Assembly: GCF_020091405.1 (NCBI RefSeq)
Contig: NZ_CP081903.1
Location: 310,001-374,000 of the forward strand
DNA length: 64,000 nt
Source of the DNA: Bacteroides cellulosilyticus
GTDB lineage: Bacteria; Bacteroidota; Bacteroidia; Bacteroidales; Bacteroidaceae
Direction: 5' to 3'
In this document: positions 21,012 to 38,779 of the stretch, piece after piece
How the letters are laid out: each line of letters starts with the position of its first letter
Numbering within the stretch: position 1 is the first letter of the stretch
The notes under the pieces: generated by a model
Database searches by the model: none
The model's input: the letters and a program-made list of their open reading frames with translations, nothing else
What the model was told of the DNA's origin: nothing
Position numbers and translations under genes: made by a program

Positions 21012-24000
21012 TTACATCGGCACAATAGTCACTCCCCACCGATACTCTTGGTTAGCAGGAATAAGATATTGTGAATCGGGGATAGCTCCCCAACTGTCAT
21101 ACCCGCCTACTCCCATTTGTTTCATATCAATGCAGACTTCCACAAAATTTTCAGGCGTTATATCATTGATATGAGTTTGGCGCGGTCTCACATTTTTAGC
21201 CGCTATAGTATCATGTTTCAATTCTTCTTCGTTGCGGTTGAGCCATTGATAATCTCGCAGAATAGCCTCTTCACCGTCAAAGTCCTCTATTGAATTGCGC
21301 AATGCGGTAAAGCCCATAGTATGGTCAGCATAAATTGTCAGCCCTTTACCATTCTTTTTTTTCAGAGTAAGCCAGCGGGTATCGGTACGGTGCCCATTCT
21401 CCTGTGGCCGTACATACGGAAAATACATCTGCTCGGCAGTATTTTGAAATAAATCTACAGTTACCCCGGCATTGCGATCTATGTAATTCTCTTCCGGACC
21501 ACGCCCGAAATAGGTAATTAAGTTCATATCCACGGGCAGACGGAAACGCATTCCAATACGTGGTACCACAAGTTCCGATCTTCTTTTCTGAATATCCTCA
21601 CTACCCAAAGTAAAAGGATCTATTTCTACCTCTGCATCTCCTGTCCGACTGGTATTCTGTTCCACAGGGGTAAAAGTATAACCAGCCTTTATTACACCGG
21701 AAGGATGGATACGATAAGTGACAATATATCTGTTTCCGGCAGGTAATAAATAGTCAACAGTCAGTACGGCATCTTTACCATCCATTTTTACATTCGCATC
21801 TGCAACCTTGAAGTCTTTGCTAGCCTGTTTCCACGTTTGTAACCGTTTAGGCGACTGACTTCCATAATCATTGTCATTGGGTGCACGCCAAAAGTTGGGT
21901 TGAAAACCAAAATTATCCGTGAAATATTCAGTGCCGTTCATTCTATAGGAAGTAACCAGTCCTTCTTTCTTGTTAAATACAAAATTGACTTTTGACGATG
22001 CAACTTCCAACAACTCGTCTTCTACACTGCAACTTAACGCCGGGCCATCAACTTTGTAAATACGCGCCAATGATTCTATTGGCAAACGAATTTGTTCTTT
22101 AGCTATTTCATAACCTACAGGAATTAACGCTTCCTGCTGAGTAGTCGTCACACTGAATTCTACAAAATATTCAGTTCCCACTTTTGGTTTCAATCCGTTC
22201 ACATTCACGTTCAGTAGTTTACTATCCTGAGGTGCAATATCCAAACACACTTTGCCGCTACGAATCGTTTTAGCATTTTCTTTCACCTTATAATGAATCA
22301 TGTATTTCTTCAGATTCGTAAAATAAAATCGATTCTTGACGATGAATTCACCACGAACCAGATCTATAGCCTCAAAAGCTATATTCTGATGCACATATTT
22401 CACTTCACTATAAGCCGGGTGAGGAGTGCGGTCAGGGTTGACAATGCCATTACAACAAAAGTTACCATCGCTTGGCATGTTTTTCCCAAAATCTCCTCCA
22501 TAAGCCCAGAATGAACGTCCATTTTCATCTTGGGTTAGAATCCCCTGGTCCACCCAATCCCAGATATACCCACCTTGCAAATTGGGATACTTATAAATAG
22601 CTTTCCACTGATCCCAAAGACTACCAGTAGAATTACCCATAGCATGTGCATATTCGGATGGCACTACCGGACGGTCACTTCCATTCTTTCCGATGTTTTC
22701 CAACCAGCCTGCACTTGGATATTGCGGGACGTACAGGTCTGAGTTCCACTCCCACTGAGCACGTTCATAATTCACCGGACGATCCATAATGTCCTTGTCC
22801 GCCTGCTTCATCCACAAATAGGTCTGATAAAAATTATAGCCGTTCCCGCCTTCATTCCCCAATGACCAGAACGTTAAAGAAGGATAGTTCTTATTACGTT
22901 CGAACATATTAATCGTACGATACATGTGAGGTTTCAACCATTCGGGATTATTCCCCAATGTACCACCTTTTCGTAAATCATAGCGCATGCCGTGACTTTC
23001 GATATTGGCTTCGTCATAAACATAAAAACCATATTCATCACACAATTCGTAAAAACGCCGGTCTTGTGGATAATGGCACAAACGGACTGTATTGATATTA
23101 GCACGCCTCATCAACTCAAAATCTTTACGCATCAACTCTTCGGTAAGATAATGCCCGGTTTCCGGATCATGCTCATGAACATTCACACCTTTCAATTTCA
23201 ACGGTTGTCCATTAATTAACAAAACCGTGTAATTCTTCCCATTAGCAGACTTTTGTTCTATTTCCTTGATTTCAATACGACGGAACCCCACATTAAATGG
23301 CACCACCTCGCTTGTTTTACCATTCTCCCTGACAGTCATCATCAACTTATACAGATTCGGAGTTTCCGAAGTCCAAGTTTCCACATCCAGCAATTGTCGC
23401 TCAAAAGTCACTGTAACCATACCTTTCGATTTCATAGACACATTTTTTTCTCCGGTAGCAACCACTCTGCCTAAGTGGTCAATCAATTCATACCCAATAG
23501 TCAGATTGGCATTAGTGTCCTTATGATTCTTTAAATCAAGGGCCAAACGGAAAACACCATTCCTGTAACTGTCATCTAAAGTAGAAGTTATGCGGAAATC
23601 TTTTATGGCAGCTTTGGGCTGCGAATAAAGAAACACATCACGCTCAATTCCGCTCATACGCCAAAAGTCCTGACACTCCAGATAAGAGCCGGTGCTCCAA
23701 CGAAATATTTTCAGTACAAGTGTATTTTCGCCTGATTTCAGATATCTATTAATCAGATATTCCGCCGGATTCTTAGAGTCCTCGTTATACCCTACTTCAT
23801 ACCCGTTTATATACACATAGCATCCCGACTTGGCACCTGCAATATGCAAATAAACGTCACGCCCTTCCCAATCGGTTGGTAGAGTGAACTCCTTACGATA
23901 AACACCCACCGGATTTTCTTCCGGCAATTGAGGAGGCTGCGGATTACTCGATTGAAACTCATAACACTGATTGGTATAGATGGCAGTTCCATAACCCTGT

Positions 24001-37700: not shown

Positions 37701-38779
37701 AAACCTCCTCCGTCAGTACTGACCCAAAGATTTCCATGTTTATCAGCCGTCATCTCACCAATATATGAATAATATAGGTTGGAAAGATTTCCGGCCTGGT
37801 AGTCATAGTGTACAAATCCACTGCGGTCGGGAGTAAAATAGTTCACTCCTCCATAGAAACTTCCTATCCAGATAGTTCCTTGTTGGTCAGTATAAAGAGA
37901 AAAAATGGAAGGATGATTTAAGCCCCCCACATACTGAGGTATCTGTATCAGTGTATAGGTTTGCTTCCGGACATCATACTTTTGTAAACCAACGAAAGTT
38001 CCAAACCAAATATTATGCTCATCATCCTCGACAAAGGCACGTATCTGCATATTGCGGATCCCAGCACTTCCGGTAAGTGCGTAAGGAACTTTTTGCAATA
38101 CATTATCCTTGAGCCGATACAATCCTTGCATGCGAGTGCCTATCCACACTTCTTCGTCCGAACTCTCGAAAATGCAATATACATCTATATTTTCCAGTAA
38201 AAACCGGGATGGTTGGAGTGTGTTTTGGGGAATGATATACATTCCTTCCATCATGCCGACATATATATTGGTTTCGCTAATTGCCAGCGTGTTTACGGTA
38301 TAAGGAGGAAGTTTCACTTTCGACCGGACGGTGTGCTGTCGGCAATCATAAGCGAAAAGAGAATCTTTCCGGGCATACCATATTTCATTCTGATAGACAG
38401 CCAAAGCGGTAGTAGTATTGTCTGTCGTATATTGCTTAAATGTGGAGGCATGAATGTCATAGCCAAACAAATTATTATCAGCTATGAAGAAAATATCGCC
38501 ATCGATATCATGAACAATGAAAGGTACATAATTACCGATCCAAAGTTTTTCTCCATCCGCATCTGTAATTTCACCTTTGACATAAGTGATTTGCTCTCCA
38601 TCATACATATTGATGCCTTCCTGCGTTCCAAACCACATCCGTCCCAATCCATCTTGGGCAATACTCAAAACCGAAGGTTGTGATAGTCCATTTTGCAAGC
38701 CCAAATTACGGAAATATTCGGCAGTTGCCGGAAGTGTGCTAAATAGCAAAAGAAGTAGAGATATGATTCTGTTTTTCAT
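34763..38779 (-). CDS. hybrid two-component system sensor/regulator (HTCS)
   Basis: This 1338-residue protein has a signal peptide (1-20), two-bladed repeats of Reg_prop beta-propeller motifs (about 25-640, for example WFGTQEGINMYDG, WIGTRMQGLYRL), a Y_Y_Y domain (about 690-760) and a membrane helix (WYATWWAWIFYMITIVSGITYY given in part). A HisKA domain (FFTNVSHEFRTPLTLIV), HATPase (DTGSGISDLD, GTGIGLALTKSIVEKHHG), a receiver domain with IISDIMMPEMTG, and an AraC-type HTH (about 1230-1338) complete it. HTCS bind an oligosaccharide in the periplasm and activate the adjacent PUL. It lies beside the phosphoesterase PUL and its likely ligand is a breakdown product of that PUL's substrate, although GH10/CE1 lies on its other side. 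Confidence 0.95.
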   Translation of the reverse strand: MKNRIISLLLLLFSTLPATAEYFRNLGLQNGLSQPSVLSIAQDGLGRMWFGTQEGINMYDGEQITYVKGEITDADGEKLWIGNYVPFIVHDIDGDIFFIADNNLFGYDIHASTFKQYTTDNTTTALAVYQNEIWYARKDSLFAYDCRQHTVRSKVKLPPYTVNTLAISETNIYVGMMEGMYIIPQNTLQPSRFLLENIDVYCIFESSDEEVWIGTRMQGLYRLKDNVLQKVPYALTGSAGIRNMQIRAFVEDDEHNIWFGTFVGLQKYDVRKQTYTLIQIPQYVGGLNHPSIFSLYTDQQGTIWIGSFYGGVNYFTPDRSGFVHYDYQAGNLSNLYYSYIGEMTADKHGNLWVSTDGGGLGCINENWELVHQFTAGGANSIPHNNVKSICYDRENDYLYIGTHLGGLSRYDFQKKSFYNYLEHQLENTPVPRHFIYQVKMWNGKLYLSSREGVFQLDPVTNHFTFLFKPESYCINFDIDAEGNFYANQADRVVIVPLSDVTQRSTLKLQDMGYKGSISHVRVTKDGAYICTLGSGLLYYDRNTRKMIVYNTENSTLPSNYCYNVKQTASNKFILTGDRGIILFDPKEQSFTSLGQKEVYLKAPIIRDCGIYVSSDNKIYIGDTKGVTLLAEEEFHTSQVEISSLYFSTLHVNNRLIEPSPENKILTAALPFTKKLMLDTEENNLLIKFAHSDYQNKYAQQGFEYKLEGLDRAWTFTPTPEARYTNLDPGDYTLYVRMAYASGQLPIQLAIHIATPWYATWWAWIFYMITIVSGITYYARNRFAKQALAQSLEKERIEKQHIEEMNHAKLVFFTNVSHEFRTPLTLIVSHIDTLLQNQLLPPQVYNKILKIKQSAQQMTNLVSELLDFRRFTQNRFILQIEKRDIGKFLKEIFLSFSDFAHQRNICYDFQCNPVEIVCWFDAKQLEKVFFNLLSNAFKYTPDGGKIGMIIATDNGNVKIQICDTGSGISDLDSARIFDRFYQGGNQKGNEQSPGTGIGLALTKSIVEKHHGAISVESEVGKGSTFTITLSLNMSIYKEDEHIQFVDSVSDMMTTTGPLLGEKIASFYEVPVPEDSLLQETAKENDRKLLLVEDNKELLQILKQLFEPFYQVYLANNGKEGLAQAYEHKPSLIISDIMMPEMTGIEMCLQIKNNVDLCHIPIILLTALNNTEQSIEGLNRGADDYISKPFNAQLLLARANNLVRNRLLIQHQLRKKPLSEIDLTSINPLDQEMLRKTSQIIEEHIDDPDFDIPELCKEVGIGRSLLYSKFKALTGMTPNNFVLNYRLKHAATLLRRYSDLPIAEVSDRCGFSSPVYFSRCFKNQYGCTPQSYQKRKDSEV

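Follow-up and report, generated by a model that had tools for sequence, protein, structure and literature searches.

The presence of several kinds of phosphoesterase in and around a SusC/SusD operon of Bacteroides cellulosilyticus raises the question of what kind of polymer such a locus degrades. The locus (positions 21012-38779) lies in a stretch of 64,000 nucleotides, hereafter the window, from a genome of 6.94 Mb in a single contig with 99 SusD-like matches. The initial annotation had listed a fusion of a metallophosphoesterase (MPE) to a family 2 glycoside hydrolase (GH2), a glycerophosphodiester phosphodiesterase (GDPD)-like protein with a LamG domain, SusD, SusC, a DUF2264 protein, PhoA and a hybrid two-component system (HTCS) regulator, and all of these are present at the positions that it gave. 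The domain scan likewise upholds two phosphoesterases in or beside the SusC/SusD (SusCD) operon, together with PhoA, a GH2 of LacZ type and an HTCS of the glycan type. The answer we favor, with a probability of about one half, is an HTCS-controlled polysaccharide utilization locus (PUL) for an acidic, phosphate-bearing glycan with β-galactose and glucuronic acid, because it encodes, along with a SusC akin to those of uronate PULs, phosphoesterases of three kinds, a galactosidase-like protein and a predicted glucuronate enzyme. In these terms it looks like a chondroitin/uronate-type PUL in which phosphodiester cleavage has taken the place of a polysaccharide lyase. The computed basis for this consists of gene content, folds, conserved active sites, the phylogeny of SusC and DUF2264, and the recurrence of phosphoesterases in related loci.

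On the minus strand, the gene for the SusC-like TonB-dependent transporter (28525-31716) is followed by those for the SusD-like glycan-binding lipoprotein (26771-28513) and the GDPD-LamG protein (25289-26752; TIM barrel at residues 47-266, LamG jelly roll at 268-487), and the short gaps and gene order support a single susC-susD-GDPD operon. The MPE-GH2 gene (21012-25145, minus strand; MPE at about residues 28-245, LacZ-type GH2 at about 301-1374) comes after a gap of 143 bp (25146-25288, minus strand), in which an inverted repeat followed by a T-rich stretch, recognized by eye, could form an attenuator or terminator. Divergent from susC, across an intergenic region of 303 bp (31717-32019) that presumably holds the promoters of susC and the DUF2264 gene, are the plus-strand genes for DUF2264 (32020-33261; formerly GH154, a predicted β-D-glucuronate dehydratase) and the PhoA-type alkaline phosphatase (33296-34717). 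The HTCS gene (34763-38779, minus strand) is convergent with phoA. In keeping with a PUL, the susC and susD homologs are adjacent and are linked to GH2 and former-GH154 genes and to an HTCS. A consensus scan gave uninformative counts, with 58 promoter-like sites against 51.2 expected and 18 terminator-like sites against 14.3 expected. Judged by the identity of flanking genes, the genome is close to those of B. stercorirosoris and B. oleiciplenus (MnmA 98% in both).

The first clue to the substrate comes from DUF2264, whose membership in a glucuronate-acting family had gone unnoticed in the initial annotation. Its best solved relative, 8oi4 (532 bits), is deposited as a β-galactosidase, a reading doubted in the accessible part of PMC12269599; among glucuronate dehydratases, 9o4u (β-D-glucuronic acid dehydratase) and 9nwf match at 406 and 403 bits. 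The same part of that report describes BcGDH and BT_3677, both of the DUF2264/GH154 family, as active dehydratases, proposes GH154 for removal from the hydrolases, and lists ten alanine mutants of BcGDH without activity (E74, R78, N176, N177, W178, F181, Y229, R285, Y289 and Y354). All ten active-site residues are identical in the window protein, with a constant offset of +4. The protein is predicted to act as a β-D-glucuronate dehydratase that forms a 4,5-unsaturated uronate, and because it belongs to this family and retains the full set of active-site residues, the target glycan probably carries glucuronic acid. A survey of 201 genomes found DUF2264 matches in 105, from which thirty loci (that of the window plus the 29 ranking next) were taken with 1.5-kb flanks in which homologs of the PhoA, phosphodiesterase (PDE) and MPE queries were detectable at E≤1e-4. 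A PhoA- or PDE-type neighbor accompanies DUF2264 in four of the thirty, namely in the window and in three g13 genomes whose DUF2264 is 75-76% identical. In the 1.5-kb flanks of the other 26, none of the PhoA, PDE and MPE queries has a relative, and GH88 is present in 14 of these loci. The window and g13 proteins form one clade in a tree of 34 rows (support 100/99). In the g13 loci (L063-L065) the gene order is susC-susD-heparinase II/III-like-GH88-type I phosphodiesterase-DUF2264, and their stretches contain no match to GDPD-LamG, MPE-GH2 or PhoA.

The second clue is provided by SusC, whose nearest relatives, a further point missed earlier, mostly sit in uronate/chondroitin-type PULs. A search at E≤1e-230, with four candidates scored per genome, returned 21 matches in 19 of 158 Bacteroides genomes; beyond three orthologs, the surroundings of 10 of the 18 non-ortholog relatives were inspected. 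Seven of the ten adjoin uronate-directed genes, i.e., polysaccharide lyase family 8 (PL8), heparinase II/III-like, GH88 or GH154: L097 has heparinase II/III-like, GH88 and GH3 genes, L098 PL8 and a sulfatase, L099 and L104 GH154, L100 heparinase II/III-like, GH88 and GH2 genes, L101 two heparinase II/III-like genes with GH88 and GH123, and L103 GH88, heparinase II/III-like and GH154 genes. Additionally, L107 contains two sulfatases, GH2 and GH95; L102 contains a GH2 that shares 63% identity with the one in L100, and L096 has neither. The nearest relative, L096 (G594), has a SusC 75% and a SusD 71% identical to those of the window and an HTCS N-terminus 57% identical at a contig end, together with a stand-alone MPE (61%) divergent from susC. 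A tree of 21 rows, some of whose outgroup rows are long-branched, places the window SusC and all ten relatives in a 13-row clade (100/100), which those of L063 and L064 join at 90/84. The SusC is related in this way to those of uronate PULs; nonetheless, no polysaccharide lyase or GH88-type hydrolase is encoded in 21012-38779.

Phosphodiester cleavage is proposed as the depolymerizing step because there is no lyase and because a lipoprotein-like diesterase is encoded directly after susD. This protein has no Pfam GDPD match; NCBIfam NF053857 (lysophosphatidylglycerol phospholipase D) matches it weakly (E 3e-4, 20 bits versus a cut-off of 450), and since searching the PDB by sequence with its alignment found nothing at E≤0.1, its classification rests on the fold. 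Over residues 47-266 the model superposes on GDPD TIM-barrel structures, and its residues 268-487 superpose on carbohydrate-binding jelly rolls; the former superposition is generic, in that GDPD entries make up 13 of the 50 fold-search rows listed, with similar Z. No sphingomyelinase-D-type structure is among the best 50 rows of either fold list. The clostridial neurotoxin binding-domain folds that matched the jelly roll were set aside as reflecting a common jelly roll of no functional meaning. Residues H54, E74, D76, H92, K124 and E155 are invariant in all 14 rows of the alignment (the window and 13 relatives); we take H54 and H92 to be the catalytic histidine pair and E74, D76 and E155 to be the metal ligands. 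Fold and invariant catalytic-type residues in combination suggest a GDPD-type phosphodiesterase. A lipobox-like LTSC, seen by eye near the N-terminus, points to what is probably a surface lipoprotein, presumably exposed to the exterior.

Relatives of GDPD-LamG at E≤1e-5 amount to 23 proteins, one of which represents the window's own cluster; near-full-length versions extend down to 49% identity (P0020), some homologs are 80-85% identical, and two relatives bear Dysgonomonas names. In P0027, a relative of the barrel (43% over 47% of the query), ricin-type lectin domains replace LamG, such that the barrel is paired with a different kind of sugar-binding domain. Among the 158 genus genomes six have any match at E≤1e-5, three of them at full length; among the 201 family genomes 21 have any match at E≤1e-3, with the full-length version confined to the source genome and the others matching through the LamG part or a barrel of about 250 residues. 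Only the source genome matches in sets of 295 and 393 order genomes (E≤1e-20; Dysgonomonas-homolog query, E≤1e-15), and nothing is found at E≤1e-30 in 61 g13 and 100 g5 genomes, which are sets without a positive control. These draws overlap, and the description of the protein as rare refers to these sets, with the Dysgonomonas carriers lying outside them. A protein of about 245 residues (G000:C1:4101128-4101622; L068 9035-9763), 28% identical to the barrel and without a Pfam or NCBIfam match, is also found in a few related Bacteroides.

In the fusion, the MPE domain is a calcineurin-like phosphoesterase of the D-x-Q type, whose sole solved relative at E≤1e-3, with a stand-alone homolog as query, is the dimetal phosphatase 2nxf; we presume the latter to belong with the ADP-ribose/CDP-alcohol hydrolases. 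The GH2 part contains all five LacZ domains in order (PF02837, PF00703, PF02836, PF16353, PF02929), stays below every NCBIfam β-galactosidase equivalog cut-off (best NF052611, 892 bits versus 999), and is best regarded as β-galactosidase-like. A signal peptide discerned by eye suggests that the fusion is probably periplasmic. Residues 1-500 retrieve 6895 proteins at E≤1e-3; among the best 120 of these, 16 span the entire query, including six at 78-80% identity, and 104 span 40-52% of it with Pfam lists lacking Metallophos. The motifs D-x-Q, GD, GNHD and GHHH are unchanged in 17 of 17 rows (the window and the 16). In G500 the MPE (78%) and GH2 (79%) are encoded by separate adjacent genes 11 bp apart (L137 9977-14238), and therefore the fusion probably joins two functions that were already linked. 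This pair adjoins a porin gene (80%) whose relative lies at 41396-42487 of the window. The MPE family occurs in nine of the 158 Bacteroides genomes at E≤1e-40. Six contexts beyond the three orthologs were covered: SusCD is adjacent in L096 and in L138 (where 441 bp separate the MPE from the susC downstream of it), L139 has a SusC about 3.7 kb from its MPE with other genes between, and no SusCD is found beside the MPE in the stretches L137, L140 and L141.

PhoA has an Alk_phosphatase domain above cut-off (PF00245, 240 bits); its open reading frame begins at 33209, and the ATG that precedes a signal-peptide-like stretch was placed by eye at 33296. In two further genomes (G520 and G608; L142 and L143) a PhoA of 59-60% identity stands directly before a different susC-susD pair. 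A sugar kinase of the PfkB type, just upstream, and a zinc-type dehydrogenase precede this cluster, which represents a second phosphatase-linked SusCD type.

We further propose, more tentatively, that a SusCD/HTCS cassette of chondroitin type was re-equipped with a GDPD-lectin, an MPE-galactosidase, PhoA and a dehydratase, such that surface depolymerization would proceed by phosphodiester hydrolysis and sugar and phosphate would be freed together. Localization, the order of steps and the substrate are inferred. At the cell surface, the GDPD-LamG lipoprotein would bind the polymer and cut its phosphodiester links, and SusCD would take up the resulting phospho-oligosaccharides. In the periplasm, PhoA could strip exposed phosphate monoesters and the MPE domain could cut residual diesters or pyrophosphates, with the GH2 domain of the fusion freeing β-galactose. 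DUF2264 might then dehydrate terminal glucuronate and thereby enable its release by an unsaturated-uronyl hydrolase (GH88/GH105) whose gene presumably lies outside the locus.

The same phosphoesterases admit a reading in which SusCD serves to take up lipid head groups, nucleotides or glycerophospho-compounds as organic phosphorus, chiefly for the phosphate, with the carbohydrases being secondary. The locus does encode a GDPD-like protein and a calcineurin-like MPE along with PhoA, the 59-60% PhoA paralogue is the first gene of a PhoA-SusC-SusD cluster in two further genomes, and the accessible part of PMC8115612 describes Flavobacterium PusCD clusters in which SusCD accompanies periplasmic PDEs or PhoA and is induced by phosphate depletion. 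However, that text sets such clusters against SusCD clusters bearing carbohydrate-active enzymes (CAZymes), and the window locus has GH2, former-GH154, LamG and HTCS. Further, its SusC relatives are mostly in uronate-glycan PULs. On account of the HTCS, the carbohydrases and these SusC relatives, a phosphate-starvation operon ranks second and appears unlikely.

The initial annotation named teichoic acid, capsule or phosphogalactan as candidate substrates, choices that remain guesses. A polymer from Gram-positive neighbors, either teichoic acid or a glycerophosphate capsule, would be a special case of the phosphorylated-glycan PUL, in which GDPD-LamG would act like GlpQ on polyglycerol phosphate, PhoA on glycerol phosphate, and GH2 in removing galactosyl substituents. 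Polyglycerol-phosphate teichoic acids are not known to contain glucuronate, whereas DUF2264 and the SusC relatives point to this sugar, and the superposition on GDPD folds is, as noted above, generic; we accordingly regard this version as improbable.

The phylogenetic distribution weakens the case for a phosphorylated-glycan PUL. The island is rare, being present in three of the 158 Bacteroides genomes: that of the window, B. stercorirosoris DSM 26884 (L061) and B. oleiciplenus YIT 12058 (L062), with G630 and G527 being the same assemblies as these latter carriers, as indicated by identical contig coordinates. In G520 and G497, whose corresponding stretches of 16 kb were compared, porin and GH10 genes come after MnmA, and no island gene matches at E≤1e-6. 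The GH10-esterase fusion that adjoins the island in the window (38957-41149; above the NF041944 cut-off for bifunctional xylanase/feruloyl esterase) is nevertheless kept in these island-less genomes. Several observations weigh against the PUL that we propose. The DUF2264 gene is missing from B. oleiciplenus; in B. stercorirosoris it has an in-frame stop, and MPE-GH2 has lost more than half its length (the adjacent HU-HIG gene is also damaged), suggesting that the DUF2264 and MPE-GH2 steps are dispensable or decaying in the other carriers. The hairpin in the 143-bp gap, recognized by eye, may uncouple MPE-GH2 from the operon, and no GH88/GH105 gene is present in 21012-38779, the only region searched for one. 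The three g13 loci are near kin and count as one association, and the covered contexts of GDPD-LamG homologs are those of three Bacteroides genomes. With PhoA found at E≤1e-100 in 151 of the 158 genomes, its presence alone says little, as it is common in the genus. As for SusC, the fetched stretches of L096, L102 and L107 contain no lyase, GH88 or GH154; the label "uronate enzyme" takes three changes on the tree, a value as low in 2 of 500 shuffles; and the rows were picked by similarity, with no background rate for other SusCs.

Some of these facts lend themselves to the view of a loosely assembled, decaying accessory island, in which recombination gathered phosphoesterases and glycosidases without a common substrate. 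In support of it, the island is absent from the same site in G497 and G520, and both other carriers have lost or broken genes. Moreover, dS between the window and B. stercorirosoris is 0.006-0.015 in the DUF2264-PhoA segment (L061 3493-4734 and 2037-3458 compared with window 32020-34717), 0.107 in GDPD, and 0.155-0.242 in SusD, SusC and MnmA; since silent sites are near-identical in that segment, unlike in SusD, SusC and MnmA, this two-gene unit was probably exchanged recently. Against it stand the dN/dS values, which cover the genes other than HTCS. In comparison with B. oleiciplenus these are 0.02 for SusD, 0.06 for SusC, 0.08 for PhoA, 0.13 for MPE-GH2 and 0.16 for GDPD, and all five genes are under purifying selection. 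With B. stercorirosoris they are 0.02 for SusD, 0.03 for GDPD, 0.07 for SusC, 0.21 for DUF2264 (seven changes only) and 0.43 for PhoA (five changes only). The MPE-GH2 fusion and the pairing of DUF2264 with a phosphoesterase in two locus types also suggest a shared function, making an aimless assemblage quite improbable. The earlier glycan-PUL proposal is partly supported: it gains from the association of phosphoesterases with GH2, SusCD and HTCS and from purifying selection on SusCD, PhoA, MPE-GH2 and GDPD; of the conserved co-occurrence suggested as a check on it, the phosphoesterases do recur in related loci, but the full gene set is not conserved.

That DUF2264, GH2 and PhoA instead trim the glycosaminoglycan-protein linker of proteoglycan leftovers (glucuronic acid-galactose-galactose-xylose, the xylose bearing a 2-phosphate) is very improbable: enzymes directed at glucuronate, galactose and phosphate fit the linker residues, and PL8/sulfatase and heparinase II/III-like/GH88 genes are found beside relatives of the SusC, but a phosphomonoester leaves the surface GDPD-type diesterase and the MPE unexplained, no xylosidase, peptidase or lyase is encoded in 21012-38779, and B. 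oleiciplenus retains the locus without DUF2264.

The same 64 kb contain a further SusC/SusD pair (55891-63797), whose accompanying phosphoesterases are a histidine phosphatase and a calcineurin-like protein. The histidine phosphatase matches MINPP-type phytases (7r5y, 274 bits; MINPP 4fdt, 176 bits), and this region appears to serve the uptake of inositol phosphate (phytate).

Capsules with phosphodiester links, teichoic acids and phosphoglycans commonly occur in the gut, and described PULs usually begin with a glycosidase or lyase. If a phosphorylated acidic glycan is indeed the target, the locus would be a source of enzymes cutting phosphodiester-linked polymers and would couple the acquisition of carbon to that of phosphate within a single Bacteroides system. 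The split MPE/GH2 pair and the DUF2264-phosphoesterase pairing could serve as markers for finding more such loci. Neither a locus combining GDPD-lectin, MPE-GH2, PhoA, glucuronate dehydratase, SusCD and HTCS nor a Bacteroides PUL tied to teichoic acid or a glycerophosphodiester phosphodiesterase was found in the open-access literature, which is weak evidence of novelty, and the accessible parts of PMC11739564 and PMC12596196 hold nothing bearing on the locus.

PULs, the dehydratase family, phosphate utilization system (PUS) clusters and SusC/D-phosphodiesterase loci are already known. The closest DUF2264 proteins (75-76%) are those of the g13 PULs (L063-L065), where they likewise lie beside a phosphoesterase of the alkaline phosphatase superfamily; unlike the window locus, these PULs keep a lyase-like gene and GH88, and their SusC is only 33-35% identical. 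The chondroitin PUL25 of B. caccae, as described in the accessible part of PMC12269599, encodes PL35, GH88, GH109 and GH154/BcGDH; it has the glucuronate dehydratase family in common with the window locus, which is without lyase, GH88 or GH109 and has instead GDPD-like, MPE and PhoA proteins. Flavobacterium PUS I/II resemble it in placing SusCD beside phosphodiesterases or PhoA, and its SusCD is indeed co-localized with phosphomonoesterase and PDE genes. However, going by the accessible part of PMC8115612, these clusters are induced by phosphate starvation and are free of CAZymes, unlike the window locus with its carbohydrases (GH2 and DUF2264) and HTCS. Finally, the available portion of PMC6499787 reports 576 susC/D loci that have PF00149/PF01663 phosphodiesterases and no CAZymes. 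If our proposal holds, some SusC/D loci with unexplained phosphodiesterases would target phosphorylated glycans, as opposed to nucleic acids or lipids. The window locus shares with those of PMC6499787, as far as described there, a SusCD next to calcineurin-like phosphoesterases, and differs from them, given their lack of known CAZymes, in that its phosphoesterase is fused to a GH2.

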